The position numbers were made by a program, and so were the translations under genes. DNA of 64,000 nt, from contig NZ_JAOZVW010000030.1 of NCBI RefSeq assembly GCF_025869345.1, positions 3,692 through 67,691 of the forward strand. Direction: 5' to 3'. The notes below the pieces were generated by a model that did no database searches, had not been told where the DNA came from, and saw nothing but the letters and a program-made list of their open reading frames with translations. Each line of letters opens with the position of its first letter. Positions within the stretch are counted from its first letter, which is position 1. Below, piece by piece: positions 41,028 through 57,135 of the stretch. The DNA comes from Sphingopyxis sp. GTDB lineage: Bacteria; Pseudomonadota; Alphaproteobacteria; Sphingomonadales; Sphingomonadaceae.

Positions 41028-41089
41028 GGCGCCGCGAGCGAGCCGCAGGGGATGGCCGGCAAAATCCCTTGCGCCTGTCTATAGGCAAT

Positions 41090-41129
41090 TTACCCTGCAA
41101 TTCTCCGTTTTTCGTCAGATGCAGGGTAA
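41090..41129 (+). promoter_or_regulatory. inverted repeat downstream of the HTH gene, conserved with covariation
   Basis: TTACCCTGCA (41090-41099) and TGCAGGGTAA (41120-41129) form a perfect 10-bp dyad with a 20-base loop. In copy 2 the arms are TTATCCTGCA and TGCAGGATGA (60251-60260, 60280-60289): one C-G pair has become T-A on both arms and another position is a G-T pair. Paired change indicates that the structure is, or was, selected. It lacks a T-tract, so it is not an ordinary terminator. Confidence 0.65.
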
Positions 41130-41157
41130 TGGACCGGCAGGCCCGCCACCGAACTTT

Positions 41158-41209
41158 TTCGATTCCCATTTTCGCGAAGTTCGATCCTCTATTCGATTCC
41201 CATTTTTCG
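41158..41209 (+). repeat. two 17-18-base direct repeats at the right end of the module
   Basis: TTCGATTCCCATTTTCG at 41158-41174 and TTCGATTCCCATTTTTCG at 41192-41209 are 34 bases apart. Copy 2 has the equivalent pair at 60318-60335 and 60350-60367. They are followed by a shorter repeat (GAGGGTGTCAGC, GAGGGTATGTC) at 41222-41244. TTCGATTCCC resembles a tRNA T-arm, the common target of integrative elements, but no tRNA body is present. They may be recombinase arm sites. Confidence 0.55.
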
Positions 41210-41371
41210 TTATAGTCGCGTGAGGGTGTCAGCGAGGGTATGTCTCGGCCGATTGGAAATAATATTCATTATAAACATCATCTTAGGAAGGTGATGCGGC
41301 TCCCTGCTTCGACGAAGGACAGGCACGGCTAGGGGCGAAATGTCGCGGACCGCGGCCCTTGGATTTTCGTC

Positions 41372-41478
41372 CTTACAATCCGTGTGTACAAACCCATATA
41401 GCATCTATCGCGGCCCTCCTTTTTGTAAGCCGCCGCGGCTGAGAGCCTGTGCTCCCGCTTACGCAGAGGAGCCCCGCC
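41372..41478 (+). promoter_or_regulatory. promoter candidate and Shine-Dalgarno hairpin leader A
   Basis: An RpoH-like promoter candidate reads CTTA (41372-41375), 17 bases, CCCATATA (41393-41400). The leader contains CTGAGAG (41439-41445), then GCTCCCGCTT (41451-41460). GCTCC (41451-41455) can pair with GGAGC (41468-41472), which is part of the Shine-Dalgarno AGAGGAG. This resembles leaders B-E of the same island, though the stem is shorter (5 bp). Regulation is inferred. Confidence 0.5.
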
Positions 41479-41766
41479 ATGAATCGCCCCGACACCGCCG
41501 AAAGAACCGTCGCATCGTCTCGCCCCGTGCGCCATTTCCACAAATATCGAAGCCCGCTCTCCCTCGATCATGCCCGGCGTCAGGGTGACATCAGCCAGCT
41601 TGCCTATCTGGTGATGGGCGGACGCGACCCTGCCATCGCCTTTCTCAATGGAGAAAATGTCGTGCTTGGCGGAAGGCCGCTCGCCATCGCAACCGCCAGC
41701 CCGGAGGGCTATGTGCAGGTCGCGGAGATCATCCGCTCTGGTGCTTCCGTGCCGGAATCGACGTGA
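41479..41766 (+). CDS. small DUF2384-like protein (MbcA/ParS toxin-binding-domain-like), paralogue 1
   Basis: A 95-residue protein. Residues 38-85 (LAYLVMGGRDPAIAFLNGEN, then GGRPLAIATASPEGYVQVAEII) match the layout of the DUF2384 domain of Xre/MbcA/ParS-type antitoxins, but the helix-turn-helix that usually precedes it is missing and no RES toxin gene is adjacent. A close paralogue lies at 55865-56161. The start at ATG 41479 follows AGAGGAG. It overlaps the next gene by four bases (GTGA). Confidence 0.7.
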   Translation: MNRPDTAERTVASSRPVRHFHKYRSPLSLDHARRQGDISQLAYLVMGGRDPAIAFLNGENVVLGGRPLAIATASPEGYVQVAEIIRSGASVPEST

Positions 41767-41987
41767 GCCGCGCGATCAACCTCGCGTTGCCTGAGGCCGA
41801 TGTCAGGGAAATCTGCCGTGCGTCGGGAGTGGCTATCAGTGCGATCGAGCGGTTGCCGTCAGGCGGCACGCGCTTGGTCTGCACGACCAGTAGCGGCGCC
41901 GACGAAATCCGCCTCAGACTCGCTGGCCACCTGATCGAAGGCGCGGTCGATCGATTCCGCTTCTATAGGCCATCCCCGACCGGTTGA
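41763..41987 (+). CDS. hypothetical 74-residue protein
   Basis: Starts at GTG 41763 overlapping the stop of the DUF2384-like gene, so it is translationally coupled. The sequence has a helical first half (LPEADVREICRASGVAISAIERL) and strand-rich second half (GTRLVCTTSSGADEIRLRL). I do not recognise a family. Its position parallels that of the hypothetical gene at 56151, which also follows a DUF2384-like gene, but the two proteins are not obviously alike. Confidence 0.6.
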   Translation: MSRAINLALPEADVREICRASGVAISAIERLPSGGTRLVCTTSSGADEIRLRLAGHLIEGAVDRFRFYRPSPTG

Positions 41988-42102
41988 TGGCATGCAATGG
42001 CGCCGGAGGCGGCCTAGCTCGATCAGAAGAAAGCGGGCGCGACGAAACTTAGGGGGAAGCCGCGGGTTGAGACCTTATCCCCGCTGACCGAAGGATCCGA
42101 TC

Positions 42103-44250
42103 ATGGCGAAGAAGCCCGTGCCGTCACCCGCCGCAGACCATGCACTTCGTGACCACCAACCGGGAGAGGGCCAGCCGGCGCCGATTGACAGCAGAGGCGA
42201 TGGCGATGAACTGCATCAGCAAGTCGGAGATGGAGTCGCCGATGCGGCGGCTTATCTCACCGATAATTTCGGTCACCGTATCTCCGACAATCAGAATTCG
42301 CTTCGCGCCGGCGCACGCGGGCCGACCTTGCTCGAGGATTTCGCCCTCCGCGAGAAAATCTTCCATTTCGACCATGAGCGCATTCCCGAACGCATCGTCC
42401 ATGCGCGCGGGTCGGGCGCGCACGGCGTGTTCGAATGCACCAGGGCGATTCCCGAACTGACCAAGGCGTCGATCTTCCAGAAGGAAGGGGCGAGTTGTCC
42501 GGTCTTCGTTCGCTTCTCGACCGTCGCCGGCGGCGCCGGATCGGTCGACACGCCGCGTGACGTGCGCGGCTTTGCGGTCAAGCTCTACACCGAAACCGGT
42601 AATTGGGATCTGGTCGGCAACAATATCCCGGTCTTCTTCATCCAGGACGCGATGAAGTTCCCAGATCTCGTCCACAGCGTGAAGATGGAGGCCGACCGCG
42701 GTTATCCGCAGGCGGCGAGCGCACACGACACCTTCTGGGACTTCATCGGCCTGATGCCCGAATCGATGCATATGATCATGTGGGCGATGTCCGACCGCGC
42801 GATCCCGCGCAGCTTCCGCATGATCGAAGGCTTCGGCGTTCATACCTTCCGCTTCGTCAACGATGAGGGTGCGGGCAAATTCGTCAAATTCCACTGGAAG
42901 CCCGTGCTCGGCATCCAGTCGACGACATGGGACGAGGCGGTCAAGATCGCCGGTGCCGATCCCGATTTCCTGCGCCGCGACCTGTTCGAGGCGATCGATG
43001 CCGGCGACTTCCCGGCGTGGAATCTCGGCGTGCAGGTCTTCGACGAGGCGTTCGCGGCAAAGCAGCCCTATGACGTGCTCGACGCCACCAAGCTGATCCC
43101 CGAGGAGGATATCCCCGTCGAGATCGTCGGCCGCATGACGCTCAACCGCAACGTCGACAATTTCTTCGCCGAAACCGAGCAAGCCGCCTTCCTGCCGTCG
43201 AACATCATCCCCGGCATCGATTTCAGCAACGACCCGCTGCTGCAGGGCCGGCTCTTCTCCTATCTCGACACGCAGAAATCGCGGCTGGGAACGACCAATT
43301 TCCACCAGATCCCGATCAACGCGCCGAAATGCCCCTTCCACAATTTCCAGCGCGACGGGATGATGCAGACGCTCGTGCCAACGGGGCGTGCCAATTACGA
43401 ACCCAACAGCCTTGCCGAAGCCGGAGAGCATGGCGGCCCACGCGCGAGCGCCGAAACGGGCTTCTCGACCTACATGGCCAATGACGAACGGAACGACCCC
43501 GCGCAGAAGCTGCGCATCCGCGCCGAACTGTTCGCCGACCATTTCACCCAGGCGCGGCTCTTCTACCTGTCGCAGACCGCGAATGAGCAGGCGCATATCG
43601 CCTCGGCGCTGGTGTTCGAGCTGTCGAAGGTGACGCTCGATCATGTCCGCGCGCGTGTCGTCGGCCAGCTCCGCAACATCGACGAGGATCTGGCGAAGCG
43701 CGTCGCCGCGGGCCTCGCGATCGACCTGCCGGCGAAGGAAAAGGCCGCGCGCGCCGCGGTTGACCTAAAACCCTCCGCCGCGCTGTCGATCCAGAAGAAT
43801 GCCGATGACACGATGGAGGGCCGCAAGGTCGCGATCCTGTTCGCCGAAGGGTCGGACAAGGCGGCGATCGACAAGCTGAAAGGCGATATCGAAAGTGCGG
43901 GCGGCACCCCCTTTCTCGTCGCGCCGAAGGTCGGCGGGATCAAGGTAAAGGGCGGCACGCTCAAGGCCGACGGCCAACTCGCCGGATCGCCTTCGGTGCT
44001 GTTCGACGCGGTCGCCTCGATCCTGACAGAAGAACAGGCCAAGGCGCTTTCGGTGCAGGGTGCGGCGGTGCAATGGTTCATGGACGCCTATGGCCATTGC
44101 AAGACCATCGCCCACGACGACGCGACGCAGCTGCTGCTCGACAAGGCGGGCGTCGAAAAGGACGGCGGTGTCGTCGCGATCGACGCGTTCGCCGACGTCG
44201 GCACGCGGCGCCACTGGGCGCGCGAAGCCAAGGTGCGCGATCTTGCCTGA
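42103..44250 (+). CDS. katE: large-subunit (clade 2) catalase HPII
   Basis: A 715-residue monofunctional catalase. The catalytic His is H100 in [20 protein letters not shown] carries the active-site asparagine, and the haem tyrosine is in [13 protein letters not shown]. After about residue 570 comes the flavodoxin/DJ-1-like C-terminal domain ([21 protein letters not shown]), which defines large catalases. It decomposes hydrogen peroxide and is usually under general stress control. An AAGGA precedes ATG 42103. No clear promoter is identified upstream. Confidence 0.95.
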
Positions 44251-44262
44251 TCGCCCACGTTG

Positions 44263-45495
44263 ATGACGGCCGCGTCCGCGACCCGTCACCGCGATCTTCG
44301 CACCGGGCGGTCGATCTGGTCGGCCCGGCGTCGTCCGGCGATCTCGTCAAAGCCGTTGACGCGCGATATCGTGTGCGATGCGGTCGTCGTCGGTGCCGGC
44401 GTATCGGGCGCGCTGATCGCGGAGGCGCTGTCGGAAGCGGGTCTCAGGACCGTCATCGTCGATCGCCGCGGCCCCGCCGAAGGATCGACCGCAGCATCGA
44501 CGGCTATGCTGCAATATGAACTCGACACGCCGCTCTCGCTGATGGCCGCGCGTATCGGGCGCGAAAAGGCCGAGCGCATCTGGCGCCGCTCGCGCCAGGC
44601 GGTCGATGCGCTGCGCGAGCGGACCGAGCGGCTGGGCCTCGCCGTCGACGGCGCGACGCGCGGTTCCATCTATCTCGACGGCAATGTCCTCGACGCCGAC
44701 GGCCTGGCGCGCGAAGCCGACGCCCGCCGGCGCGCGGGTTTCGAGGTCGAGCTTCTCAAACCCGCCGCGGTGTTGGAGCGCTACGGGATCAAGGGACGCC
44801 ATGCGCTGATCGGTTTCGGCAATTATTCCGCCGACCCGCGCCGGATGACCCTTGGCTATCTGAACGCCGCCATCGCGCGCGGCGCCCGGCTCTATTCGCC
44901 GGTCGATATCTGCGACATCGACGCGCGCGAAGACGGCGTGACGCTTCACAGCGCGCGCGGTCCCGAGATCCGTGCGCGCCATGTGGTCATGGCGACGGGC
45001 TACGAGATGATGAAGGGCATCCCGCGCAAGGGAAACAGGATCATATCGAGCTGGTCGATCGCGACCCGCCCTCAGCCCCGCGCCATCTGGCCGACGGCCG
45101 CGATGATCTGGGAAGCCGCCGACCCCTATCTCTACATCCGCACCACCCCGCGCGGCGAGGTCATATGCGGCGGCGAGGATGAGGAAATCGCGGACGCGGG
45201 CGAACGCGACGCGAAGCTTCCCGGCAAGATCAGAACCCTGTCGCGCAAGCTCGCCGCGCTGCTGCCGGGAATCGACGCGACTCCGGTCCATGGCTGGGCC
45301 GGCAGCTTCGGCGACAGCCCTGTCGGCACCCCGACGATCGGCCGCATCCCGCGCATGCCCAACTGCTATGCAGCCATGGGTTATGGCGGGAATGGCATCA
45401 CCTTCTCGATGATGGCGGCGCAGATGCTGCGCGGGCTGATCTGCGGCTATGGCGATCCCGACGCGGACCTCGTCAGCTTCCATCGAAAATTCTAG
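44263..45495 (+). CDS. FAD-dependent amino acid oxidase-like protein (DAO family)
   Basis: A 410-residue flavoprotein. The dinucleotide site is DAVVVGAGVSGALIAEALSEAGL, followed by VIVDRRGPAEGSTAASTAML, and the C-terminal FAD contact is CYAAMGYGGNGITFSM. The fold is that of glycine/D-amino acid oxidases (DAO). The natural substrate is unknown. Start ATG 44263 follows directly on TTG 44260; the first 35 residues are basic and precede the fold. It lies 12 bases after the catalase gene and probably shares its transcript. Confidence 0.86.
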   Translation: MTAASATRHRDLRTGRSIWSARRRPAISSKPLTRDIVCDAVVVGAGVSGALIAEALSEAGLRTVIVDRRGPAEGSTAASTAMLQYELDTPLSLMAARIGREKAERIWRRSRQAVDALRERTERLGLAVDGATRGSIYLDGNVLDADGLAREADARRRAGFEVELLKPAAVLERYGIKGRHALIGFGNYSADPRRMTLGYLNAAIARGARLYSPVDICDIDAREDGVTLHSARGPEIRARHVVMATGYEMMKGIPRKGNRIISSWSIATRPQPRAIWPTAAMIWEAADPYLYIRTTPRGEVICGGEDEEIADAGERDAKLPGKIRTLSRKLAALLPGIDATPVHGWAGSFGDSPVGTPTIGRIPRMPNCYAAMGYGGNGITFSMMAAQMLRGLICGYGDPDADLVSFHRKF

Positions 45496-45691
45496 GCGGG
45501 TCCGCGCAACGCAGTCGCGCCATCGCACCTGTCAGTGTCTTTTCCTGCTTCCGATGAGCAGCATGGTCTTGGCGCCGTCGCTGGTGTAGGGTCGATCCTT
45601 CACCGCCACCGATAGCGCGGCCGCTTTACCCATCGGCGCTCCATCATACCGAGTGCCGCCGGCATGGCGGCTCTTTCCGAAAGGATCGCTA

Positions 45692-47518
45692 TTGCCCCAT
45701 GACACCAGCCTTCTCGCCATGCTCGTTATGGGACTGGTCCTCGCTTTCATCGGCGGATTCATTGCCAGCAGGCTGAAGCTGCCGCCGCTCGTCGGCTATC
45801 TGCTCGCAGGCGTGGCGGTCGGCCCCTTCACTCCCGGCTTCGTCGGCGATGCTGCGCTGGCGAACCAGCTCGCGGAGATCGGCGTGATCCTGCTGATGTT
45901 CGGTGTCGGGCTGCATTTCTCGATCAAGGATTTGGTCGCTGTCCGCAGGATCGCCATCCCCGGCGCGCTCGTCCAGATCGTGGTTGCGGCCCTGCTCGGG
46001 GCGGGCCTGGTGCATCTCTGGGGCTGGACCACCGGGGCGGGCCTGGTTTTCGGTCTTGCCCTGTCGGTCGCGTCGACCGTCGTGCTGCTGCGCGCGCTCG
46101 AGCAGCGCAATACGCTCGATTCGATCAACGGCCGGATCGCCGTGGGTTGGCTGATCGTCGAGGATCTTGTCATGGTGCTGGCCCTTGTGTTGCTGCCGGC
46201 GTTAGGGCGCGCGCTGGGAGGGGAAGGAGCTTCGGGCGGCGCGGGCGATATCGCGCTCGTCTTGCTTGTCACGCTCGGAAAGGTTGCGCTGTTCCTTGCG
46301 CTTGTCCTGATCGTCGGAACGCGCGCCGCGCCCTGGATATTGGAACGTGTCGCCCGAACGGGCTCGCGCGAATTGTTCACTCTGTCGGTTCTCGCGACCG
46401 CGCTCGGTATCGCTTTCGGCTCGGCCGCCCTGTTCGGCGTGTCCTTCGCACTCGGCGCCTTCTTTGCTGGCGTGATCCTCAGCGAAAGCGATTTCAGTCA
46501 TCGGGCGGCCGCGGACTCGCTGCCGTTGCAGGATGCTTTTGCCGTCCTGTTCTTCGTCTCGGTCGGGATGCTGTTCGATCCGGGCATCCTGGTCCGTGAA
46601 CCGTCCGCCGTTCTGGCAGTGCTGGCGATCATTCTGGCCGGCAAGTCGGTTGCGGCGTTTGGGATCGTGCTGGCCTTCGGCTATCCGGCGCGGACGGCGC
46701 TGACCGTCTCGGCGAGCCTGGCGCAGATCGGCGAGTTCTCCTTCATCCTGATCGGCCTGGGCGTCACCTTGGGGCTGGTCGAGGCGGAAGCGAGGGACTT
46801 GGTCCTCGCCGGCGCGCTGCTGTCGATTACGCTCAATCCGCTCGTCTTCATCGCTTTCGACGGCTTCGAGAGATGGCTGCGACGACGACCGCGGCTGTTG
46901 GCATTGCTGGAGCGGGGAGGCGATGAGAGCCATTCCCGTCTGCCCGACGCGAAGCACAGCAGCTTTCGCCATCACGCGGTCGTTGTCGGCTACGGCCGGG
47001 TCGGGCGCGTGGTCGGTAGGATGCTCAAGAGCGAAGGTCTTCCCGTTATCCTCGTCGACAAGGATCGACGCCGCGTCGAGGCGCTGCGCGAGCGCGGCAT
47101 TACGGCCATCTATGGCGAAGCATCGACCCCGGGTATTCTCGAGGCGGCGGATATCGCCCAGGCGCGGCTGCTCGTGATCGCGACGCCGGATGGCTTTCAG
47201 ACACGGCGCATCATCGAGATCGCGCGCGAGCTCAATCCCGAAATCGACACCGCGATCCGGACCCACAGCGAAGCCGAGGTCGCCCATCTCGAAGGTCAGG
47301 GCGTCGGCCTCGCGATCATGGGCGCGCGCGAGCTGTCGTTCGGCCTCGCCGGCTATGCGCTGCGCAGCCTCGGCATTTCGAAGAAGCGCGTAGCGGCCAT
47401 CGTTCAGAAGGAGCGCATATCCGGGGAAGGCGGCGCGTTCGAGCGCCGGCCCGACATACCGCCTCGCGAAGCGCCAGAACTGCGCCAGCGCCGGGGGGAT
47501 GACGAGGATGCAGGCTGA
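45692..47518 (+). CDS. Kef/YbaL-type monovalent cation:proton antiporter (CPA2)
   Basis: A 608-residue transporter with about 12 membrane helices and a C-terminal RCK_N/TrkA-N domain (HHAVVVGYGRVGRVVGRML, ILVDKDRRRVEALRERG). Near-identical segments to E. coli YbaL occur early: LKLPPLVGYLLAGVAVGPFTPGF split by family positions, LMFGVGLHFS and GWLIVEDLVMVL. It probably exchanges potassium or sodium for protons under nucleotide control. Start is TTG 45692, six bases after AAGGA; it aligns with the YbaL N-terminus. Confidence 0.92.
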   Translation: MPHDTSLLAMLVMGLVLAFIGGFIASRLKLPPLVGYLLAGVAVGPFTPGFVGDAALANQLAEIGVILLMFGVGLHFSIKDLVAVRRIAIPGALVQIVVAALLGAGLVHLWGWTTGAGLVFGLALSVASTVVLLRALEQRNTLDSINGRIAVGWLIVEDLVMVLALVLLPALGRALGGEGASGGAGDIALVLLVTLGKVALFLALVLIVGTRAAPWILERVARTGSRELFTLSVLATALGIAFGSAALFGVSFALGAFFAGVILSESDFSHRAAADSLPLQDAFAVLFFVSVGMLFDPGILVREPSAVLAVLAIILAGKSVAAFGIVLAFGYPARTALTVSASLAQIGEFSFILIGLGVTLGLVEAEARDLVLAGALLSITLNPLVFIAFDGFERWLRRRPRLLALLERGGDESHSRLPDAKHSSFRHHAVVVGYGRVGRVVGRMLKSEGLPVILVDKDRRRVEALRERGITAIYGEASTPGILEAADIAQARLLVIATPDGFQTRRIIEIARELNPEIDTAIRTHSEAEVAHLEGQGVGLAIMGARELSFGLAGYALRSLGISKKRVAAIVQKERISGEGGAFERRPDIPPREAPELRQRRGDDEDAG

Positions 47519-47620
47519 TCCGGTGCGCAGGCCCATTCTGCGTGGCGAATTGATGCCCGCATCATGTCCGTCTGTGATAGGATGTGTCATCACCCGATTT
47601 CGATCGCAAGCTTCCCGTGA

Positions 47621-47664
47621 CTGAGAGACCTCGAGCTCCCGCTTGCCCAGCGGGAGTCTATTCG
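47621..47664 (+). promoter_or_regulatory. Shine-Dalgarno-sequestering hairpin leader B
   Basis: CTGAGAGACC at 47621-47630 is followed by a perfect 8-bp hairpin: CTCCCGCT (47636-47643), loop TGCCC, AGCGGGAG (47649-47656). The 3' arm contains GGGAG, the only Shine-Dalgarno sequence for ATG 47665, eight bases on. Leaders C and D have the same GAGAGAC plus GCTCCCGC block. Confidence 0.7.
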
Positions 47665-47964
47665 ATGATTTCCATCCACGAACCCTCGCGATCTTTCGGC
47701 CGGATCATTCGGTTGTGGAACCGGCTTCTCCATCACGGGCTGGAACATGTTCCGCAAACGATGGGAAACGCGTTTCACCAGTCGCGGCGCCGGCGACACG
47801 ACCTCGAGCGCGCAATCGAAAGCTGGGAGCGCGAAAACGACGCCTGCTCGGGGGCGCCGCAAACAGCCCATCCTCAAGTCGTGTCGTCGTCTTCTGTCCA
47901 GCATGCCCTTGAGCAATGGGACAATGAGGGCGGAGCACAACCAGCGAAAGGAACGCGATCATGA
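47665..47964 (+). CDS. hypothetical 99-residue stress-island protein
   Basis: A hydrophilic, helical protein (FGRIIRLWNRLLHHGLEHV, QSRRRRHDLERAIESWE). No family recognised. Its start at ATG 47665 is fixed by the hairpin leader with GGGAG. Its stop overlaps the start of the next small zinc-binding protein gene (ATGA), so the pair is co-translated. Confidence 0.65.
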   Translation: MISIHEPSRSFGRIIRLWNRLLHHGLEHVPQTMGNAFHQSRRRRHDLERAIESWERENDACSGAPQTAHPQVVSSSSVQHALEQWDNEGGAQPAKGTRS

Positions 47965-48113
47965 TACTGCACAATCTCTTCGGCCGTCACCTCGTCGATT
48001 TCAAGGCGAGCCACTGGGATCGGGGGCGCTTCGTCAGCCATTGCACCGTTTGCGGTTGCGAGATGGTCAAACTACCCGGCTTGGTTTGGCAGGCGAGCGG
48101 ACGGCGGGGCTGA
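47961..48113 (+). CDS. 50-residue protein with CxxCxC cysteine cluster
   Basis: Reads MILHNLFGRHLVDFK, then a region with H-C-T-V-C-G-C-E at about residues 27-34, and ends at a TGA at 48111. The three cysteines and a preceding histidine could form a zinc site. AAAGGA lies nine bases before the ATG, which overlaps the upstream stop. The gene is too short to be found by length filters. Function is unknown. Confidence 0.6.
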   Translation: MILHNLFGRHLVDFKASHWDRGRFVSHCTVCGCEMVKLPGLVWQASGRRG

Positions 48114-48176
48114 GACGATCGGCTCTGCCGCTCGACCGGACGGAATCGCTCTATTAGCGACCCGGCATGATAAACA

Positions 48177-48201
48177 GGAACAATGCCCTATCCCGCGCGT
48201 C
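48177..48201 (+). promoter_or_regulatory. candidate general-stress (EcfG-type) promoter
   Basis: GGAAC at 48177-48181, 16 bases, then CGTC at 48198-48201; the alphaproteobacterial EcfG consensus is GGAAC-N16/17-CGTT. It lies about 45 bases before a small hydrophilic stress-type protein gene. One mismatch in the -10 element keeps confidence moderate. Confidence 0.5.
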
Positions 48202-48245
48202 TTCTCCATGCCCACTACCGGGCAATTGAAGAGAGGAGAATGGTC

Positions 48246-48416
48246 ATGGTCAACCCCGACCAGAACCAGACCGGCAGCCAGCCGGGCCGCAAGTCGGAAG
48301 GCGAGCGCCAGCCCCAGCAGGAGGACGGCGGCCGCCGTCAGCCCGGCCAGCCGGACCGCGACAAGCGGCCTCAGCAGGGTGGAGAAGCGGAAAAGCCGGG
48401 CAAGCAGAGCAGCTAG
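48246..48416 (+). CDS. small disordered hydrophilic protein
   Basis: A 56-residue protein rich in Gln, Gly, Pro, Lys and Glu (NPDQNQTGSQPGRKSEGER), with no hydrophobic core. Such proteins are common among stress-induced genes of this bacterial group. ATG 48246 is chosen because GAGGAG ends seven bases before it; ATG 48240 would be only one base away. A terminator follows directly. Confidence 0.65.
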   Translation: MVNPDQNQTGSQPGRKSEGERQPQQEDGGRRQPGQPDRDKRPQQGGEAEKPGKQSS

Positions 48417-48440
48417 TCCGAGCTAACCGATCGTCCCCAG

Positions 48441-48479
48441 GCCGGGCTGCGTGTCGATACGTGGCCCGGTTTCGTTTTG
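48441..48479 (+). terminator. rho-independent terminator
   Basis: CCGGGC (48442-48447) pairs with GCCCGG (48464-48469), with an inner CGT/ACG extension, followed by TTTCGTTTT. It ends the transcript of the small hydrophilic protein gene and sits before the convergent GH130 operon. Confidence 0.8.
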
Positions 48480-48536
48480 GAAGTGTCCTGCCGCGCTTCA
48501 AGTCATTCCCGCTCGCCGACAGTATCCGATTTCCCT

Positions 48537-48719
48537 TCACATGCGGGAACGGCATGCCTGTGCAACCGCGTCGGCAAGGCTGGCATAGCGATAGCCGTCT
48601 AGGAGATAGGTCGCGGCGGGCACGCGGGTAATGCCGTATCGATCGAGTGTTTCACGCTCGGCGGCGTCGATACCGCCGCATTTGCATGACCGGTCGTTGC
48701 CGGACGGGGTCTTGTCCAT
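48537..48719 (-). CDS. conserved hypothetical 60-residue protein
   Basis: Begins MDKTPSGNDRSCKCGGIDAAE and contains a C-K-C motif at about 12-14; the second half (ITRVPAATYLLDGYRYASLADAVAQA) looks like a small alpha/beta unit. AAAGG precedes ATG 48719. It lies 11 bases after the GH130 gene and is the last gene of that operon. The cysteines could bind metal. Confidence 0.6.
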   Translation of the reverse strand: MDKTPSGNDRSCKCGGIDAAERETLDRYGITRVPAATYLLDGYRYASLADAVAQACRSRM

Positions 48720-48730
48720 GTCGAAGCCTT

Positions 48731-50032
48731 TCAATCCTTGAGCTGGTCGAGAAGTGTCGTGATCCTGATCGTGGCGACGGTCGAAAAGGCGTCCGATATG
48801 GCATAGGGAAGCAGGATGCGCTCTCCGACCTTGATGGCGCCGCACGAATAGACGACGTTCGGGACATAGCCATGGCGCTCCGCGGTCGCGGGCTGGACGA
48901 GCGGTACGCGCGAGCGCCCGAGCACGCGCGAGGGATCGTCCTTGTCGAGCAGAACCGCGCCGATCGAATAATGGCGTACGGGGCCGACGCCATGGGTGAA
49001 GAGCAGCCAGCCTTCGTCGAGTTCGATGGGCGAGCCGCAATTGCCGATTTGGACGAACTCCCAAGGATATTTGGGCTTCACGATCACCTCGCCGAGGCCC
49101 CATTCGTGGAGGTCGTCCGACAGGATGAGGTGCAGGCTCTCATTGTCGTGGCGCGCGATCATCGCATAGCGACCGCCGATCTTTCGCGGAAAAAGCGCCA
49201 TCCCCTTGTTGTGCGCCGCAGCGCCCTTGAGCGGTGCCAGATGGAATGTCACGAAGTCCCGGGTTTCGATCAGCTCCGACCTTATGCCGCTTCCGCTGTA
49301 GGCGGTGAAGGTCGCATAATAGATGGTCTGGCCTTCGTCATGGAAGGCGACGAAGCGGGCATCCTCGATCCCGTTCGCCTGCCTCTCGGTGACGGGGAAG
49401 ATCACCCGCTCCGCGATGTCGCTGGCGGGATCGAAGCCGAGTTCCAGACGATCGCCGACACGGGCGGTCACGACGGGCGTCGCGGCGAGCCGCGCGGGCG
49501 GGTCGATGGTAACGGTTCCGTCGGCGGCCAATATTCCCGACCGGAACGTCAGGGAAGAGATGTGGCCTTCGCCGACCGCGCGCAGGCTAAGGATGAAGCG
49601 GCGGCATCCTGCGGCGACTCCCGACTGGTCGGGGTGCGGCACGATGCTGGGATTGAACAGCGCGGCTGCTTCGAAGCTGTACTCATGAAGAAAGTAGGCG
49701 CCGACGAGCTGACGCTGCGCCTGCGAGAAGCTCTTGTGAGCTGTGAAGGCATCCTCCATTTCCGCGGCGCGCCGTTCGAATATTGCGGGGAGGTTGCGGT
49801 GCCGGTCGTCGAAGTTTCGCAGCGTTTCGGCAAGCAGCGCGTCGGTCTCGTCCGCGGTCATTGCGAGGACGCGGTCGACGATGTGATTGGCGCGGGTCTT
49901 GTCGACGGGATGCAGGTCTCGGGGTTCGACCGCCGGCCGGAACGGCCGGACGACGACGCGCGACGGGTCGGGCCGCAAGTGAAGCGCCTGCCGGTTGAAG
50001 AAGGGCGCGGATGGCGGAGCCCCGTCAGGCAT
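48731..50032 (-). CDS. glycoside hydrolase family 130 (mannoside phosphorylase-type) protein
   Basis: A 433-residue protein of the five-bladed propeller GH130 family: FNPSIVPHPDQ, EDARFVAFHDEG, NKGMALFPRKIGGRYAMIAR and IGNCGSPIELDEGWLLFTHGVG are family blocks including the catalytic acid region. Members phosphorolyse or hydrolyse beta-mannosides. Its start overlaps the end of the glycosyltransferase gene by eight bases, so it acts with it, perhaps in turnover of a mannose-containing glycan. Confidence 0.88.
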   Translation of the reverse strand: MPDGAPPSAPFFNRQALHLRPDPSRVVVRPFRPAVEPRDLHPVDKTRANHIVDRVLAMTADETDALLAETLRNFDDRHRNLPAIFERRAAEMEDAFTAHKSFSQAQRQLVGAYFLHEYSFEAAALFNPSIVPHPDQSGVAAGCRRFILSLRAVGEGHISSLTFRSGILAADGTVTIDPPARLAATPVVTARVGDRLELGFDPASDIAERVIFPVTERQANGIEDARFVAFHDEGQTIYYATFTAYSGSGIRSELIETRDFVTFHLAPLKGAAAHNKGMALFPRKIGGRYAMIARHDNESLHLILSDDLHEWGLGEVIVKPKYPWEFVQIGNCGSPIELDEGWLLFTHGVGPVRHYSIGAVLLDKDDPSRVLGRSRVPLVQPATAERHGYVPNVVYSCGAIKVGERILLPYAISDAFSTVATIRITTLLDQLKD

Positions 50033-52343
50033 TGATGGCTTCGTGTGTGGATGGGCTCGGCTGTGACGGCGCCCGCCGGTCCGCCGCTCTCAGGCGCTGC
50101 ATATCGGCCAGCGCGAGCAGGAAGGATAGCACCGATTCCGCCCCCCGGTTCTCGTTCGCGCGGTCCGGGTGGAGGCCGTCGCGGCAACTGCCCGTCGCGA
50201 GGTCAGCCAGCTTGATGCCGAGATCGTTCGCGCCAAGAAACCATGCGAAGGCGCGCTCGGCTTCCGCACGCCACGAAGAGTCTGGATCGACGCCTTTCGC
50301 CGCGATACAGGCCGCGATCGTCGCGCAAGCCTCCAGCGGCTGTTGATCGAACGGTTCGGGACTATTGCGCGAGGTCATCAGGAAGCCATGCGAGCCGACG
50401 GGCCGGAAATGACCTTCGGGCGCCGTCTGCATCGCCACCAACCAGCGCAGACTTCGCAATCCCGCTTCGACCATGGTCGCCGAGAGCGCTGCGGCGCCCG
50501 TGACGATCAGCGCTTGCGGCAGCCGGGCGTTGTCATAGCTGAGGCCATTTTCGAACCATGTCCATTCGGGACCTTCCTGTTCGCCCAGCAACCTTTCGAG
50601 GCGGCCGGCGAGTTCGGCACGCAGGCGCGCGGCGGCATGATCTTCGGCATAAACCGCGCAATAGGATGCGAGGCCGAGCAAGGTGAACGCCCAGGACCGC
50701 GGTGAGGTGAAGGCCTCGACGTCGGCCAGCGCCTCGCTGAACAGCTCTTTTGCCCAGCGCGCATGGCCAAGGGAGCAGGCACGCGCACTATAGGCGCCCA
50801 GCGCCCAAAGCGTCCGCCCGTGACTGTCCTCCGAGCCCGCATCTTCCAGCCATCGCCGGTCGAAGCCCATGAAATTGCGAAAACGCCGATTGCCCGGATT
50901 CCAGCCGTGCTGGATGAAGGCCGCGAATGTGGATGACAGCCGGCGCGCCAGCGGCGCATCGGGGCCGCCGGCGAGACCGCAGCACAGGAGCAGCGCCCGT
51001 GCATTGTCGTCGATGCAATATCCATGACTGCGGTCGGCGATTGCGTGAACGGCATGCTGGAATATCCCCGTGTCGTCGGACATCGCGGCGAGATGGTCGA
51101 GCGAGATCGGTGGGAGGTCGGGTTGGACGTTCGTCCGCAGGCGGACTGGCCCGGGTTCGGGCATCCCCGCCTGGCCGCCGGACGCGAGCCTGCGCTCACG
51201 GCAAGCCTTGCGAAAGCTCGCGGCATAGCGCCGCGCCGAATTGGCCCAGATCATGGGGCGGCTCGCCGCATAGGCCTTGCGCCCCATCGCCAGACGTTCG
51301 GTGTCATTGCCCAGCAGATCGGAAATCGCCGGGCCGAAGCCTGCCGGATTGTCGAACGGGATCAGGACGCCCGACCCGTCGGCGAGCAACTCGGCGGCGT
51401 GCCAATAGGGCGTGGAAACGACCGGACGCCCCAGACCATGCGAATAGGCGAGCGTTCCCGACGTCATTTGCGCCGCCGCCAGATAGGGCGTCGCATAGAC
51501 ATCGCACATCGCGATATGGTCGAGCAGTTCGGGGCGGTCGACGAAACGGTTGATGAACGCGACATGGTCATCGAGGCCAAGCTCGCGTACCCGCGCCGTC
51601 AGCGTGTCGCGATAACGCTCGCCCTCACGGGCCAGCAAGGCGGGGTGGGTGGCGCCCATCACCACATAGAGGACATCGGGCGTGCGCCGGACAATCTCGG
51701 GCATGGCCTCGATCATCGTCTCGATACCTTTGTTCGGGCTCATCAGCCCGAATGTCAGGATCACCTTGCGATCGGTAAACCCCAACCGCTCCTTGGCGGC
51801 TCGCGCCGAGGCGAGCGGAACATCGGGAATGCCGTGGGCGATAACGTCAATCTTCCCCGGATCGGCGCCATAGACATTGATCAGCATGTCGCGGGCCTTG
51901 TCGGCCATGACGACCACCCGCGCCGATGCGGTAACGATATCCTTCATGACGCGGCGCTGCGCCGTGGTCGGCCGATCGAGAACCGTGTGCAAGGTGGTGA
52001 CGAGCGGCGCATCGAGCCTCGCTACGAGGCCGAGAATCAGCGCGCCTGCCTCGCCGCCGAAGATGCCGAACTCATGCTGGAGGCAGACGAGATCGAACGC
52101 CTCGCGATTGATGAAATCGGCGGCGGCGCGATAGTCGGCCACCTGGCCCTGCCGGATTGTCTTGCGGACGGCTGGCGGAAATTCGTGGTCGCCGCCCGGC
52201 TCGATCATCGCGACAATGGCCGTATCCGCAACCTCGCCGAGCGCGCCGACCGCGAGTTCGAGGTCGGTCGTGAATGTGGCTATGCCGCAGCGGCGCGGGA
52301 GGGCATTGCCGACGAACGCGATCCGCAGCGCCGGCGTGTGCAG
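50025..52343 (-). CDS. GT4 glycosyltransferase fused to an alpha/alpha-barrel domain; apparent CTG start
   Basis: A large protein. The N-terminal half is a GT-B fold family 4 glycosyltransferase (FGLMSPNKGIETMIEAMPEI, LAAAQMTSGTLAYSHGLGRPVVSTPYW). The C-terminal 340 residues form a helical toroid-like domain (HGYCIDDNARALLLCCGL, TWFENGLSYDNARLPQALI). ATG 52208 would remove the first strand and nucleotide-sugar loop; the frame continues upstream through LRIAFVGNALPRRCGIATFT, typical family N-terminus, to a TGA. No ATG/GTG/TTG lies there; CTG at 52343 or 52328 is the likely start. Function in glycan synthesis is inferred. Confidence 0.82.
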   Translation of the reverse strand: MHTPALRIAFVGNALPRRCGIATFTTDLELAVGALGEVADTAIVAMIEPGGDHEFPPAVRKTIRQGQVADYRAAADFINREAFDLVCLQHEFGIFGGEAGALILGLVARLDAPLVTTLHTVLDRPTTAQRRVMKDIVTASARVVVMADKARDMLINVYGADPGKIDVIAHGIPDVPLASARAAKERLGFTDRKVILTFGLMSPNKGIETMIEAMPEIVRRTPDVLYVVMGATHPALLAREGERYRDTLTARVRELGLDDHVAFINRFVDRPELLDHIAMCDVYATPYLAAAQMTSGTLAYSHGLGRPVVSTPYWHAAELLADGSGVLIPFDNPAGFGPAISDLLGNDTERLAMGRKAYAASRPMIWANSARRYAASFRKACRERRLASGGQAGMPEPGPVRLRTNVQPDLPPISLDHLAAMSDDTGIFQHAVHAIADRSHGYCIDDNARALLLCCGLAGGPDAPLARRLSSTFAAFIQHGWNPGNRRFRNFMGFDRRWLEDAGSEDSHGRTLWALGAYSARACSLGHARWAKELFSEALADVEAFTSPRSWAFTLLGLASYCAVYAEDHAAARLRAELAGRLERLLGEQEGPEWTWFENGLSYDNARLPQALIVTGAAALSATMVEAGLRSLRWLVAMQTAPEGHFRPVGSHGFLMTSRNSPEPFDQQPLEACATIAACIAAKGVDPDSSWRAEAERAFAWFLGANDLGIKLADLATGSCRDGLHPDRANENRGAESVLSFLLALADMQRLRAADRRAPSQPSPSTHEAINA

Positions 52344-52349
52344 GCCATC

Positions 52350-52484
52350 TCAGTGCTTGCCTTTCGGTTTGGCGGTCATTTTCACCGCAGACGCCTCTTG
52401 GGCGGCAAGGGCAGTGAGTGCTTTGGGTTTTGCTGCCTTGGGCTTGCGGATCTCGCGATTGCTGCGCTTTTGCGATTTTGCCAT
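52350..52484 (-). CDS. small basic conserved protein (MAKSQKRSNREIRKPK type)
   Basis: A 44-residue Lys/Arg-rich protein starting MAKSQKRSNREIRKPKAAK, a sequence type seen across proteobacteria without known function. It lies between an 81-residue gene (one base between the stop and this ATG) and the glycosyltransferase, whose frame is the same as this one, separated only by the TGA stop and six bases. Too short to appear in usual ORF listings. Confidence 0.75.
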   Translation of the reverse strand: MAKSQKRSNREIRKPKAAKPKALTALAAQEASAVKMTAKPKGKH

Positions 52485-52485
52485 G

Positions 52486-52731
52486 TCAGACGTCCTTCCG
52501 TTCGATCATCCGATACGAGAATTCGTCCGAACGCCGCGGGCGGGCCGAAGCGATCGCTCCGCTCCGGACATTCGGAGAAAGATAGGGACGGTGACGGTAG
52601 GGGAAGGATTTGAAGCACTGACCGAGGCTTTCGATCTTGCGCCGATATCGCATGACCTCCGAGGGTTTGGTCGCGGCGGAATAGCGCATCAGCGCGATCT
52701 GTTCGTCTTCGAGTAGCTGATTGAGGCACAT
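52486..52731 (-). CDS. 81-residue protein, divergent member of the YHHQMA-like family
   Basis: Starts MCLNQLLEDEQIALMRYSAA, which parallels the [20 protein letters not shown] start of the 55240 protein (Q-L-L, a three-residue swap, Q-x-A-L). Later residues (YRRKIESLGQCFKSFPYR) are basic and tyrosine-rich. ATG 52731 lies eight bases after AGGAG, which is in a hairpin (leader E). First gene of the operon that continues with the small basic protein, GT4 and GH130. Confidence 0.6.
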   Translation of the reverse strand: MCLNQLLEDEQIALMRYSAATKPSEVMRYRRKIESLGQCFKSFPYRHRPYLSPNVRSGAIASARPRRSDEFSYRMIERKDV

Positions 52732-52761
52732 GGTGCGTGCTCCTGCATCAAGCGAGAGCAC
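52732..52761 (-). promoter_or_regulatory. Shine-Dalgarno-sequestering hairpin leader E
   Basis: On the minus strand GTGCTC (52761-52756) pairs with GAGCAC (52742-52737) around a 13-base loop. The 3' arm overlaps AGGAG (52744-52740), the Shine-Dalgarno of ATG 52731. The 5' part GTGCTCTCGCTT closely matches leader A (GTGCTCCCGCTT). Confidence 0.55.
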
Positions 52762-53079
52762 AATTTTTGTCCCTCTGTCACATGGAGCTTGTTCAAAATT
52801 CAGGTGATGAGGGCCTTATACCACGGATCGCGCAAACCACCCCACGAATTCGGGGCAATTCGAATGCCTATATGTTTATCATTGCGGCCAACACTTCCCG
52901 GGCAGAGCGACACCAACCTGACGGCAATGGCTATGATCTGTTGATTCTGGAGGATTTGCGCGCGGTTGCGAACGCAGTCGGCCGCACGCCTCGCCGGGGG
53001 CAATCGACCGCATTCGTATCGAGCCCGTTCGCTATTGGCTTGTCGTTTCCGCAGCGTTGCGCCGCGCGCGATCAATTCA
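52762..53079. other. intergenic region, no gene seen
   Basis: About 320 bases between two minus-strand genes. Frames on both strands have atypical composition and no supporting ribosome-binding site. The base composition is lower in GC than the flanks. It holds the promoter region of the GT4/GH130 operon, but I cannot identify a clear promoter. Confidence 0.45.
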
Positions 53080-54240
<1,161 letters not shown>

Positions 54241-54671
54241 GTCGATGAAAGGCTTCGCGCCGTCCCGGCGCGACGCAAATGCCGCACATGATCGAGAAGG
54301 CTGCCGCGACGGCGGTTCAACTTATGCCTGCCGAGACGGCCGAGCTTAGCCAAAGCCGAACAACCGCGGCGCGACGGCATTCCAGATGTCACTGCGTGCG
54401 ATCCGCGACTCGGTCGTGTGGAACGGAATCAGGATCAGCGCAGCCCGGAGCGGTACCGGATGAATCGGTTCCACCCAAGCCCCCCAAGATCTGAATCATA
54501 GGACCCTCTCCCGGAAAATCGCCGAAAATCGTCTGGCTCGTCGGCTGTGGTCTTGGCTGTGAAGCGACGGGGTGCCACCGGCCAAACATTTGGTCAGCCG
54601 TTCGAAGCGCGCCGGATTTTGGATTCCCGCAAGGCCGGCGATATATTCGGGAGATAATTGGAGTCGCACCT
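54241..54671. other. intergenic region, no convincing gene
   Basis: About 430 bases after the aldo/keto reductase remnant. A plus frame from 54279 (MPHMIEKAAATAVQLMP) soon becomes Arg/Ser-rich and is not convincing; the reverse frame is no better. The 3' end holds the ribosome-binding region of the next gene (GGGAGATAATTGGAG). Confidence 0.45.
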
Positions 54672-54995
54672 ATGGGAACGAAGGCCACTCGCGACCTGTG
54701 GGGCCAAGCCCTCGCCATCGAAAATCAGTTTGGCGATCGTGGGCCCGAGGTTCTCGCACGGCGTATCGACCGGCTGCGCGATGCTGGTGAAATCGAGGAC
54801 GCGGAATTCTGGTCGCAGGTCGCCGGATGCCTGACCGATCTGCATGCGATCCGCCTGCCGGGCGCTTGCGCCGTCAATATGGACGGGCCGCGCGGCCAGC
54901 GCCAAAGTGCACACACGCCATGCAATTCGGCCTCGCCGGATACACCCGCGGAACGCGTGCAATTGAACTCAGTCGATCAGTTTCAGAGTGATTAG
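54672..54995 (+). CDS. DUF6961-like small protein with unusual C-terminal tail
   Basis: Residues 6-60 (TRDLWGQALAIENQFGDRG, then RIDRLRDAGEIEDAEFWSQVA) have the pattern of small sphingomonad proteins grouped as DUF6961: D-x-W, A-x-x-x-E, a helix pair and W near residue 47. The last 45 residues (ACAVNMDGPRGQRQSAHTP) are of different composition and may reflect a frameshift or fusion after residue 62. Function is unknown. Confidence 0.5.
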   Translation: MGTKATRDLWGQALAIENQFGDRGPEVLARRIDRLRDAGEIEDAEFWSQVAGCLTDLHAIRLPGACAVNMDGPRGQRQSAHTPCNSASPDTPAERVQLNSVDQFQSD

Positions 54996-55135
54996 CTCGA
55001 CCCTTTCTCTTCGACGGGTTCAATATCGGCTATCAAAGCACCCAGGCTGAATTTCGGCGCCGCTCGGTTGTCGGCTGCAAGCCGCTGTCGATCCGCAGCA
55101 TTGCGAGCCGGCAAGCACGGGGCCGAACCCCCTCT

Positions 55136-55164
55136 CTTGTAAATGAGAAGCCGCTACCCCATCT
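55136..55164 (+). promoter_or_regulatory. RpoH-type heat-shock promoter candidate
   Basis: CTTG at 55136-55139, 17 bases, then CCCCATCT at 55157-55164. This matches both the alphaproteobacterial RpoH pattern (CTTG-N17/18-CYTATNT) and the E. coli sigma32 -10 (CCCCAT). Transcription would begin near 55172, leaving a leader of about 68 bases that contains hairpin C. Confidence 0.65.
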
Positions 55165-55200
55165 CCATGAGATCGTCGGCGTCCTTTCGCTTGCCGGGGA

Positions 55201-55239
55201 CTGAGAGACCATCGCGCTCCCGCTGAACGGGAGGTGGAC
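55201..55239 (+). promoter_or_regulatory. Shine-Dalgarno-sequestering hairpin leader C
   Basis: CTGAGAGACC (55201-55210), then CTCCCG (55217-55222), loop CTGAA, CGGGAG (55228-55233). GGGAGG at 55229-55234 is the Shine-Dalgarno for GTG 55240, five bases on. Combined with the RpoH-like promoter just upstream, this is the best candidate in the window for an RNA thermometer. Confidence 0.7.
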
Positions 55240-55875
55240 GTGGATCTCAATCAACTCCTTTATCATCACCAGATGGCGCTGATCGCAGCGAACCGCGCCC
55301 ACCGCGATGGGCGGCCCCACGCCAATTTCGATCTTCCGCGCTATTATGCGAAGCGGATCGGCGAGTATCGCGCGCGGCGCGGCCTCGGCGTCGGTCCGGC
55401 CCTCATGGCCGATCGAGACGGCGGCCCGCGCGCGGATCCTCCGACCTCGGCACAGGGCGACGACTATCCGGTTTTTCTTGGCGACACGCTGGTTGCCGAA
55501 CTTCTCGTCAACAAGGCGCTGGCCATGACCGAGGCCGAGCGCGCGGCATGCGCGCTGGGCGGCATAGCCGAGCGCTTGACCGATCTCCACGAAGAGCTGT
55601 GGGTCATCGGACACGATATCTACCAGGCCCTCGATCTCGACGAGGAAAAACTCGCGAAGCTGGCTGCCGACCTGCCTCCGCCCCCCCCCCACGAACGGCA
55701 GGCCGTGCATCTGCGGCCTTTCCGCCCGCAGTCGGACGAGGGCATCGTCCATAGCTATGTTGACCAGTTCAGCGTGGGAAGCTTTCGCTATACCAATATC
55801 GAGGATGCCCGCGCCGCGCTGCGTCGTCAGCGCGAGAGCGCTGCGAATTCCGGGAGGCAAGCCAATGATGCCTGA
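55240..55875 (+). CDS. YHHQMA family protein, 211 residues
   Basis: Starts [14 protein letters not shown] and continues FDLPRYYAKRIGEYRARRGL; then VFLGDTLVAELLVNKALAM and ELWVIGHDIYQALDLDEEKLAKL, paralogous to the 53080 protein. A proline run (residues about 149-154) and a short tail follow. GTG 55240 is preferred over GTG 55234 by spacing and by alignment with both paralogues, which begin M-D-x-(D/N)-Q-L. Its stop overlaps the start of a DUF2384-like gene. Function is unknown. Confidence 0.78.
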   Translation: MDLNQLLYHHQMALIAANRAHRDGRPHANFDLPRYYAKRIGEYRARRGLGVGPALMADRDGGPRADPPTSAQGDDYPVFLGDTLVAELLVNKALAMTEAERAACALGGIAERLTDLHEELWVIGHDIYQALDLDEEKLAKLAADLPPPPPHERQAVHLRPFRPQSDEGIVHSYVDQFSVGSFRYTNIEDARAALRRQRESAANSGRQANDA

Positions 55876-56161
55876 CCGCAAGGAGATGCCGGCGGCGCGC
55901 GCGCGGACCAATCCGTTCAGGCGGCGCCGGCCCTTCGCACCGCTTCCGCCGCAAGAAGCGAAGCGTCAGGGCGCGATCAGCGCGCTCGCTTTCCAGTTGC
56001 TCGGCGGGCGCGATCCCGCGCTGACCTTCCTGAATGGCGAAAGCGCCGAATTGCGCGGCCGCCCGATCGCAATCGCCACCCTGAGCGATACGGGCTACGC
56101 TCTCGTCGAGCGGGAAATCCGCTCGCGCGCGGCCGAGACCGGTGAGCGCCATGTCAGGTGA
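55865..56161 (+). CDS. small DUF2384-like protein, paralogue 2
   Basis: A 98-residue protein with an Arg/Pro-rich N-terminus (NPFRRRRPFAPLPPQEAKRQG) and the same core as the 41479 protein: LLGGRDPALTFLNGESA, RGRPIAIATLSDTGYALVE. Shared positions include R-Q-G-x-I-S-x-L-A and GGRDPA-x2-FLNG. No RES toxin or helix-turn-helix is present. ATG 55865 overlaps the upstream stop and its end overlaps the next start. Confidence 0.7.
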   Translation: MMPDRKEMPAARARTNPFRRRRPFAPLPPQEAKRQGAISALAFQLLGGRDPALTFLNGESAELRGRPIAIATLSDTGYALVEREIRSRAAETGERHVR

Positions 56162-56384
56162 TCGGGAAGCCGCGCGGCATATCACGCGCACATGGTTCGA
56201 GTGGGAAATCGACGGGCTGGCACGCAAAGTCATTCTTGTCGTCGAAACCGATCTGGCCATGCAGCCCGACGAGCAGGACTATGACGCGCTTACTCTCGAC
56301 ATGCTGCGTACGGAAGCGATCGCCCGGTCGCGGGCGTCGCCCGGCGCGATCGATCGCATTCGCATCGTGCCCGTTCGCTACTAG
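56151..56384 (+). CDS. hypothetical 77-residue protein
   Basis: An acidic protein (MSGDREAARHITRTWFEWEI, KVILVVETDLAMQPDEQDYD) with a strand-helix layout. Not recognised. The frame also has GTG 56142; ATG 56151 is slightly preferred. It overlaps the end of the DUF2384-like gene and ends 30 bases before the DUF3892 gene. Confidence 0.6.
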   Translation: MSGDREAARHITRTWFEWEIDGLARKVILVVETDLAMQPDEQDYDALTLDMLRTEAIARSRASPGAIDRIRIVPVRY

Positions 56385-56414
56385 TGGCCATGACACAGGG
56401 ATGGAGCATCCGGC

Positions 56415-56684: not shown

Positions 56685-56774
56685 TAGCGCGCGGGATTTG
56701 GACTTTCTGCTGCACCGGAAATCGTGCGGGCCATCGCGAAGAGACTTCGGACGATCGGGCAAATCTCCATCGCA

Positions 56775-56806: not shown

Positions 56807-56892
56807 CATCCTCTGCGCTCGTGACCAAAGGAAGCCCCATTGGCCTTCCCGGGTCGCGAGGAAAGCCTTTGTCATACGACAATAGGCCGATG

Positions 56893-57135
56893 CTAGGCGA
56901 TGTCGAGCGCGATCGCGCCCGAGCCGGTCTTTATCACCGCGACGGGCCGCCGCGCATGCGCGCTGCTATATCCGACAAAATCAGGTTCGAGACCGCGTTT
57001 TTCGCGAAACCGGTTGATCCGCCGGGCATAATGGTTCGGGAGATCGAAACCGGCGGGTGCTTCGCCGGCGCGGTGTGCCCGGTCGGCAGCGATCACGGCC
57101 ATTTGATGATGATAGAAGAGCTGGTTCATATCCAT
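56893..57135 (-). CDS. YHHQMA family protein, short form (80 residues)
   Basis: MDMNQLFYHHQMAVIAADRA then FDLPNHYARRINRFREKRGL; only the N-terminal module of the larger paralogues is present, followed by a 30-residue tail (YSSAHARRPVAVIKTGSGAIA). ATG 57135 follows AGGA and is chosen by alignment. Unlike its paralogues it has no CTCCCG hairpin leader. Last gene of the cspA-infA operon. Confidence 0.75.
   Translation of the reverse strand: MDMNQLFYHHQMAVIAADRAHRAGEAPAGFDLPNHYARRINRFREKRGLEPDFVGYSSAHARRPVAVIKTGSGAIALDIA

Follow-up and report, generated by a model that had tools for sequence, protein, structure and literature searches.

The window analysed here, a stretch of 64,000 nucleotides from Sphingopyxis sp. 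(Sphingomonadaceae, Sphingomonadales, Alphaproteobacteria; assembly GCF_025869345.1, contig NZ_JAOZVW010000030.1, positions 3,692 to 67,691), contains five 5′ leaders, A to E, that represent one element of about 80 nt, consisting of a hairpin P1, a joiner CUGAGAGAC, and a hairpin P2 in which GCUCC stands opposite the Shine–Dalgarno sequence GGAG. We consider it probable, with some reserve, that these leaders belong to a so far uncatalogued family of cis-regulatory RNAs in alphaproteobacteria, in which a trans-acting signal, probably recognising the joiner, would open the fold and release translation from a low default level. A sequence-only reading of the window had described five leaders with the Shine–Dalgarno sequence in a hairpin, and their letters and positions were found as described. 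The shared block that it reported, GAGAGAC followed after 2–8 nt by CG-x-GCTCCCGC, has three occurrences in the window, those of B, C, and D, with gaps of 2 (B), 3 (C), and 3 (D) nt instead of the three to six bases given; GTGCTC-Y-CGCTT occurs twice, at A and E. Because leaders A and E have an altered form of the same joiner, all five can be assigned to one element. Its hairpin description covered P2 and lacked both the upstream hairpin P1 and the pairing between the P1 and P2 loops (L1 and L2). Bit scores were obtained with two covariance models, R1, built from 15 leaders including A, and the wider R2, whose training alignment A3 holds leaders A to D, not E. The leaders are as follows.

41407..41482, plus strand: leader A, full element; R1 69.4 bits (A is among the R1 training rows); joiner CTGAGAGCC at 41439-41447, P2 5′ arm GCTCC at 41451-41455, Shine–Dalgarno arm GGAGC at 41468-41472; L1 GTAAGC (41425-41430) complementary to L2 GCTTAC (41457-41462) over 6 bases.
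47589..47667, plus strand: leader B, full element; L1 GCAAGC and L2 GCTTGC (6 complementary bases); R1 35.4 bits.
52728..52808, minus strand: leader E, divergent; joiner CAGAGGGAC; P2 GTGCTC/GAGCAC; L1 CAAGC and L2 GCTTG by eye; R1 13.2 bits, E 0.11 (weak); R2 29.3 bits, E 1.9e-4 genome-wide, with E outside the training rows.
53907..53979, minus strand: leader D, full element; strong P2 CTCCCG/CGGGAG; R1 27.8 bits, R2 44.5 bits.
55172..55244, plus strand: leader C, full element; strong P2; R1 35.8 bits, R2 48.2 bits.

In the host genome, all five element matches at E ≤ 0.01 (R2) lie on this one contig. The layout in relatives, which were fetched with a sequence pattern for the study of anatomy (L014 was excluded as unlike the element), is a promoter, AUCGC...P1...GCGRCUGAGAGAC, a spacer of 3–10 nt, GCUCCCGC, a loop, GGAG, and the start codon; the sources of the leaders were supplied in three sets of 100, 30, and 73. 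In alignment A3, 89.1% of the cells pair, and the whole-structure covariation score was 0.417, compared with 0.184 for shuffles (0/500) and at most 0.082 for slid versions. Two-sided changes were found in A3 in all eight pairs of P1. Because A3 had been fitted to the model structure, the P1 test was repeated on bare sequences, of which 145 were left after an anchor filter; 6.94 of 8 pairs formed within leaders vs 5.28 with the 3′ arms swapped (z 21), a control that, like the permutations used below, removes shared ancestry only in part. Outside the family, the corresponding values were 6.92 and 6.00 pairs (z 8.8, n = 61), based on 61 of the 77 rows of alignment A6 after duplicates and weak anchors were dropped.

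The loops of P1 and P2 also varied together. In 144 of 152 distinct leaders, the mean complementary run between them, searched over a stretch that includes the inner P1 arms, was 4.92 vs 4.03 in permuted pairs (z 12.8); in the 81 leaders with an L2 other than GCTTRC it was 4.16 vs 3.42 (z 7.3), and outside the family 3.93 vs 3.62 (z 3.5, n = 61). The commonest loop pair is GUARGC/GCUUAC, and exchanged forms include GCAAGC/GCUUGC, GAUGC/GCAUC, CAGGC/GCCUG, and GAGC/GCUC, among others. Such compensatory changes indicate selection on the RNA. Covariation in P1 and between the loops, and not in P2, supports a conserved RNA structure in these 5′ leaders, a feature expected of riboswitches. A pairing of GAGAG with CUCCC was also considered and was dropped by inspection (its consensus contains one mismatch). 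In the order of G600 (L299-L319), P1 is often longer (CCAUCGC...GCGAUGG), and a TTGGAC-like box often lies upstream by eye, suggesting a different promoter type there.

The window leaders have five different L2 sequences and nearly one joiner, suggesting that any trans factor common to them would recognise the joiner and not L2. The exact CTGAGAGAC was present in 93 of 145 leaders, a count inflated by a search pattern that contained GAGAGAC. In other families, where the leaders had been found with the model only and rows were retained if 7 of 9 joiner letters fit, CTGAGAG was kept in at least 42 of 61.

Sequestration of the Shine–Dalgarno sequence, as proposed by the sequence-only reading, is supported by prediction: the mean predicted unpaired probability of GGAG was 0.06 in the leaders (176 of 219 distinct leaders with a usable GGAG) vs 0.34 in a control set of 200 frames, each at least 120 aa long and drawn from the fetched loci (p 4e-35), a comparison biased by the selection of the leaders with models containing P2. 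Of the 87 leaders in which P2 has 5 bp, 85 have their first start codon 2–8 nt past the Shine–Dalgarno arm.

This bias and several further observations weigh against the reading as a cis-regulatory RNA family. The covariance-model search of sphingomonads that the sequence-only reading had suggested showed the element to be widespread with P1 and the loops covarying, whereas the stem it had drawn, P2, is almost without covariation: a two-sided change was seen in one of five pairs, in one sequence only. P2 is nearly invariant and thus not provable by covariation; moreover, its outermost pair is broken in 42 of 114 sequences, and as for candidate pairs extending P2, the flanks paired no better than when permuted. 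The loop pairing is absent or weak in some leaders, including C and D, in which there is no clear contact (three complementary loop bases in D; in C, the five scored bases fall in the P1 arm). Single-sequence folds were unremarkable in 11 leaders (z +1.5 to -2.6), and the minimum-energy folds of several leaders (L017, L009, and A, for example) deviate from the modelled P1 and P2; in leader A, the Shine–Dalgarno stretch is paired with CTCC of the P1 loop. Furthermore, the conservation of the joiner is partly a product of our own search pattern, and the downstream genes point to no common pathway or ligand.

The element is not confined to the window. The pattern GAGAGACN{2,9}GCTCCCGC was found in 93 of 249 family genomes, compared with 16 of 249 for the reversed pattern, a difference too large to be due to chance. 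R1 matched 57 of 119 family genomes at E ≤ 0.05 and 81 of 246 genomes of an order-level draw at E ≤ 0.01. At the latter threshold, R2 matched 22 of 289 class genomes, 3 of those 22 within the family; among 12 class-level loci inspected, two were probable false matches; L287 has no joiner and L291 no GCTCCC arm. In another alphaproteobacterial order, that of G600, in which 29 loci were inspected, 52 of 76 genomes had R2 matches at E ≤ 0.01, with up to 14 matches per genome. Among the matches listed, five genomes of one genus with 6.9-8.8 Mb genomes had 3–10 matches each, and G898 had 10. Across the phylum, 24 of 249 genomes had R2 matches at E ≤ 0.01, and the four of these outside the class (E 0.002-0.009) are near chance. 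A scan of named genomes with the exact pattern returned at least 118 stretches, nearly all from sphingomonads, the remainder being one Microvirga, one Bradyrhizobium, and two named only Pseudomonadota/Proteobacteria. R2 scored 59.5 bits in Bradyrhizobium genosp. SA-3, 57.4 in Microvirga VF16, 53.0 in Sphingobium SYK-6, and 50.8 in Bradyrhizobium sp. 195, and gave a weak match (29.8 bits) in Bradyrhizobium CB82. The record of Microvirga sp. SRT01 (L209) has a leader of the sphingomonad type (58.7 bits), and its name may be wrong. At L070, L073, L075, and L122, pairs of leaders lie about 80-100 bp apart on opposite strands, serving divergent genes from one intergenic region.

The proteins encoded behind the leaders are diverse. 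Their frames were chosen by script, and some starts may be wrong. In the family set, 13 leaders had no frame of at least 40 aa, and 137 of 139 distinct proteins were scanned (L088 and one of L122 were dropped); at least 54 of the 137 lacked a Pfam match at E ≤ 0.01, given family counts that overlap and sum to 83. The matches included the Crp helix–turn–helix (13), response regulator (4), DUF6894 (3), MbcA/ParS (3), zf-CHCC (2), and alternative oxidase (1), and 11 downstream proteins of this set matched NCBI Fnr/FixK models. In other families, 65 of 66 proteins were scanned (L318 was dropped, wrong frame), with DUF6894 in 10, the Crp helix–turn–helix in 8, and zf-CHCC and PAS in one each. The Crp helix–turn–helix, DUF6894, and zf-CHCC occur in both sets, indicating that distant families share these kinds of gene behind the leader. 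Several of the proteins from other families are membrane peptides with a length of about 30 aa. One such peptide, conserved and of the MKDWLVPPVLFPIFLILLIAGYAILRTPT type, follows the leader in the order of G600 (L299, L304, L310, L360, and L363), and related xxWIVPPVIVPLLL peptides stand behind it in the genus with 6.9-8.8 Mb genomes (L325, L334, and L346).

In the window, the genes behind the leaders and one related gene are as follows.

41479..41766, plus strand: gene A, 95 aa; weak similarity to the Xre/MbcA/ParS antitoxin C-terminal domain, the Pfam match being below the cut-off (E 0.0018, 18.7 bits vs 24.5).
47665..47964, plus strand: gene B, 99 aa; WDNEGG near the C-terminus, similar by eye to WENEGGS small proteins behind leaders of other genomes.
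52486..52731, minus strand: gene E, 81 aa from ATG at 52731; N-terminus like that of C and D (MxLNQLL..Q.AL).
53080..53910, minus strand: gene D, 276 aa; paralog of C.
55240..55875, plus strand: gene C, 211 aa from GTG at 55240 (MDLNQLLYHHQ...).
56893..57135, minus strand: paralog F of C and D (MDMNQLFYHHQ...), without a leader upstream and thus an internal negative.

The five proteins had been called unrelated; this holds for A and B, which are different proteins, and not for C and D, which are paralogs with 48% identity over 211 aa. Paralog F, compared with one extra codon before the ATG, shares 63% identity over 49 aa with C and 52% over 64 aa with D (entry 55866 was excluded from this protein comparison, being in the wrong frame), and the covariance-model search of its locus (L388) returned no match at E ≤ 0.5. 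By BLAST, the resemblance of gene E to C and D extends over about 20 residues and is not significant (E 0.08-0.5). MDLN proteins form the commonest small family behind the leader. A query built from leader-bearing genes, and therefore biased towards such genes, gave 24 matches in 14 of 59 genomes; the leader is directly upstream in 14 of the 24 and, at locus L379, upstream of the preceding small frame. The other nine, including paralog F, have no leader at E ≤ 0.01; at one of these, L389, part of the element is matched weakly at the expected position (12.2 bits, E 0.14).

Between leaders A and B (42103-47518), Pfam matches identify a large catalase, an FAD-dependent oxidoreductase, and a Na/H exchanger with a TrkA domain, and glycosyltransferase and GH130 phosphorylase genes lie at 48731-52208. 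Conjugative-transfer-like frames (TrbF/G/I-like by eye) adjoin the island at 37769-40601, suggesting that a mobile element may carry the genes under control of the leaders. In a plasmid search with the island, the best cover was 26%, and among the best 20 of 55 records, 18 matched the catalase gene and 2 the glycosyltransferase stretch; the same search with protein C (145 aa) returned no match.

Averaging 151 upstream regions gave a T-rich -35/-34 region, a (C/T)AT-like stretch from -12 to -10, and a pyrimidine preceding the first base of P1, an A; TTRHA began at -35 or -34 in 40 and YATHT at -12 in 39 of the 151. This layout is sigma70-like, and the element's first base is the inferred transcription start. 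Two other promoter types were rejected as a common feature. EcfG promoters have a consensus of the GGAAC-N16/17-GTT type, and a loose pattern (GGAAC, 15-18 nt, and GTT/TTG/GTC/ATTG) was present in a minority only, in 3 of 111 (A3), 0 of 29 (A4), and 5 of 70 (A6) upstream regions. Some -10 boxes (CCATAT/CCCCAT) resemble those of RpoH promoters, and this type was dropped in view of the sigma70-like spacing in the average of the 151 leaders.

The following model is proposed for the control of these genes. Transcription would start at the A of AUCG, as the average placement of the -35 and -10 regions suggests. The RNA would fold into P1 (8 bp), the joiner, a spacer of 3–10 nt, and P2 (GCUCC with GGAG), the two loops pairing in many members, and this fold may keep the Shine–Dalgarno sequence closed, resulting in low default translation. 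A trans signal, for which a small molecule or a protein recognising the joiner CUGAGAG is the likeliest candidate, would then shift the loop–loop and P2 fold and open the leader, though the direction could be the reverse. The element could thus coordinate small proteins and regulators with differing promoters. The gene content and the EcfG-like GGAAC spacing in 8 of 210 upstream regions make stress control, which the sequence-only reading had also inferred, plausible. A more specific version of this model is possible, and we hold it only tentatively: a new riboswitch class of Alphaproteobacteria in which CUGAGAG would bind the ligand in a pocket resembling the turn that binds the pyrimidine in thiamin pyrophosphate (TPP) aptamers, and a stress-related ligand would break the loop–loop lock and open the translation of small stress proteins and Crp/Fnr-type regulators.

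Other explanations were weighed against a joiner-reading cis-regulatory RNA. A trans-encoded small RNA might open the leader by pairing with CUGAGAG or the CUCCCG arm, much as GsrN reportedly acts on katG in Caulobacter. The joiner and the GCUCCC arm show the conservation expected of a shared target, both inside single genomes and from one genome to another, on counts inflated by the search pattern; however, the wide taxonomic span would require one small RNA conserved alongside, and simple target pairing leaves the covariation of P1 and of the loops unexplained, making this explanation rather doubtful. An RNA thermometer, in which heat melts P2 and frees the Shine–Dalgarno sequence, appears unlikely. 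It would account for the predicted hairpin around that sequence in the model-selected leaders and would suit the RpoH-like -10 boxes of some leaders, whereas the predicted unpaired probability of GGAG barely changed between 20 °C (0.06) and 50 °C (0.07), in predictions made without the loop–loop contact, contrary to the temperature control suggested by the sequence-only reading. Moreover, a melting stem needs no conserved single-stranded joiner, no Rfam thermometer matched a leader, and no heat-shock family was found in the Pfam matches of the 137 and 65 downstream proteins.

We regard as similarly improbable an element that responds to no signal, in which P1 protects the 5′ end and P2 fixes a low translation rate. 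P1 does begin at the predicted +1 in the average profile of the 151 leaders, but neither a conserved joiner nor a covarying loop–loop contact would be called for. Least credible by far is that the leaders were merely carried along with duplicated paralogous genes. The paralogs C and D have similar leaders; however, paralog F has none, A and B encode different proteins, nine of the 24 MDLN-family genes are without the leader whereas genes for Crp/Fnr, DUF6894, and other proteins have it in distant families, and the compensatory changes contradict simple copying. The preference of the sequence-only reading for common control over duplication alone was thus borne out by a leader that precedes several protein families in many genomes.

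The element spans sphingomonads, Bradyrhizobium, Microvirga, and further alphaproteobacterial families, with as many as 10-14 matches in single genomes. Structured leaders in many copies per genome are uncommon, and known ones, for example, the c-di-GMP riboswitches, mark a global signal. The leader ties numerous small proteins that are uncharacterised to regulators of the Crp/Fnr type and to proteins with DUF6894, and, as a testable RNA of about 80 nt, provides a concrete handle on what those genes respond to.

The statement of the sequence-only reading that no known RNA class fits agreed with the Rfam searches, which returned no match on any leader: there was none in the window at the gathering cut-offs of Rfam 15, four matches in 41000-57300 at E ≤ 5, all off the leaders, none in 14 relatives at E ≤ 2, and two in nine loci outside the family at E ≤ 2, both off the leaders. 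The SAM-II, suhB, ybhL, speF, and serC elements are Rfam entries, and none of them was among the Rfam matches of the scanned stretches. These, with SAM-II at metA, are structured elements of alphaproteobacterial intergenic regions (PMC1273637). Literature searches named no such element among the matches listed, the supplementary motif lists of PMC8632094 and PMC11109978, two surveys of GC-rich intergenic regions, lying outside their coverage, and a search with the motif letters gave only unrelated work among the matches listed.

The odc1 motif was tested with an example from Sphingomonas echinoides and has a single hairpin whose loop is large, UUG starts in tandem, an 11-aa upstream frame, and ornithine decarboxylase as its gene (PMC8632094). 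Judged against that description, the element resembles odc1 in being alphaproteobacterial, with the Shine–Dalgarno sequence in a stem and a pseudoknot, but it has two hairpins and other genes and does not belong to odc1. CUGAGA is the pyrimidine-binding motif of TPP aptamers (PMC9544697) and does not occur in the main text of PMC6478431. The joiner contains the same letters as the TPP riboswitch (RF00059), a likeness in letters only and so far a six-letter coincidence; RF00059 gave no match among the Rfam matches of the scanned stretches, the Pfam matches listed for the downstream proteins included no thiamin family, and the element measures only about 80 nt overall. Cobalamin riboswitches make a loop–loop (kissing) contact to a Shine–Dalgarno hairpin, and guanidine-II (mini-ykkC) riboswitches consist of two tandem hairpins with kissing loops. 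Although the element differs from both in its long conserved joiner, in loops that covary instead of being a fixed ACGR, and in the lack of an Rfam match, it is like the kissing-loop translational riboswitches in being a 5′ leader with two hairpins, loop–loop pairing, the Shine–Dalgarno sequence in the second hairpin, and several targets.

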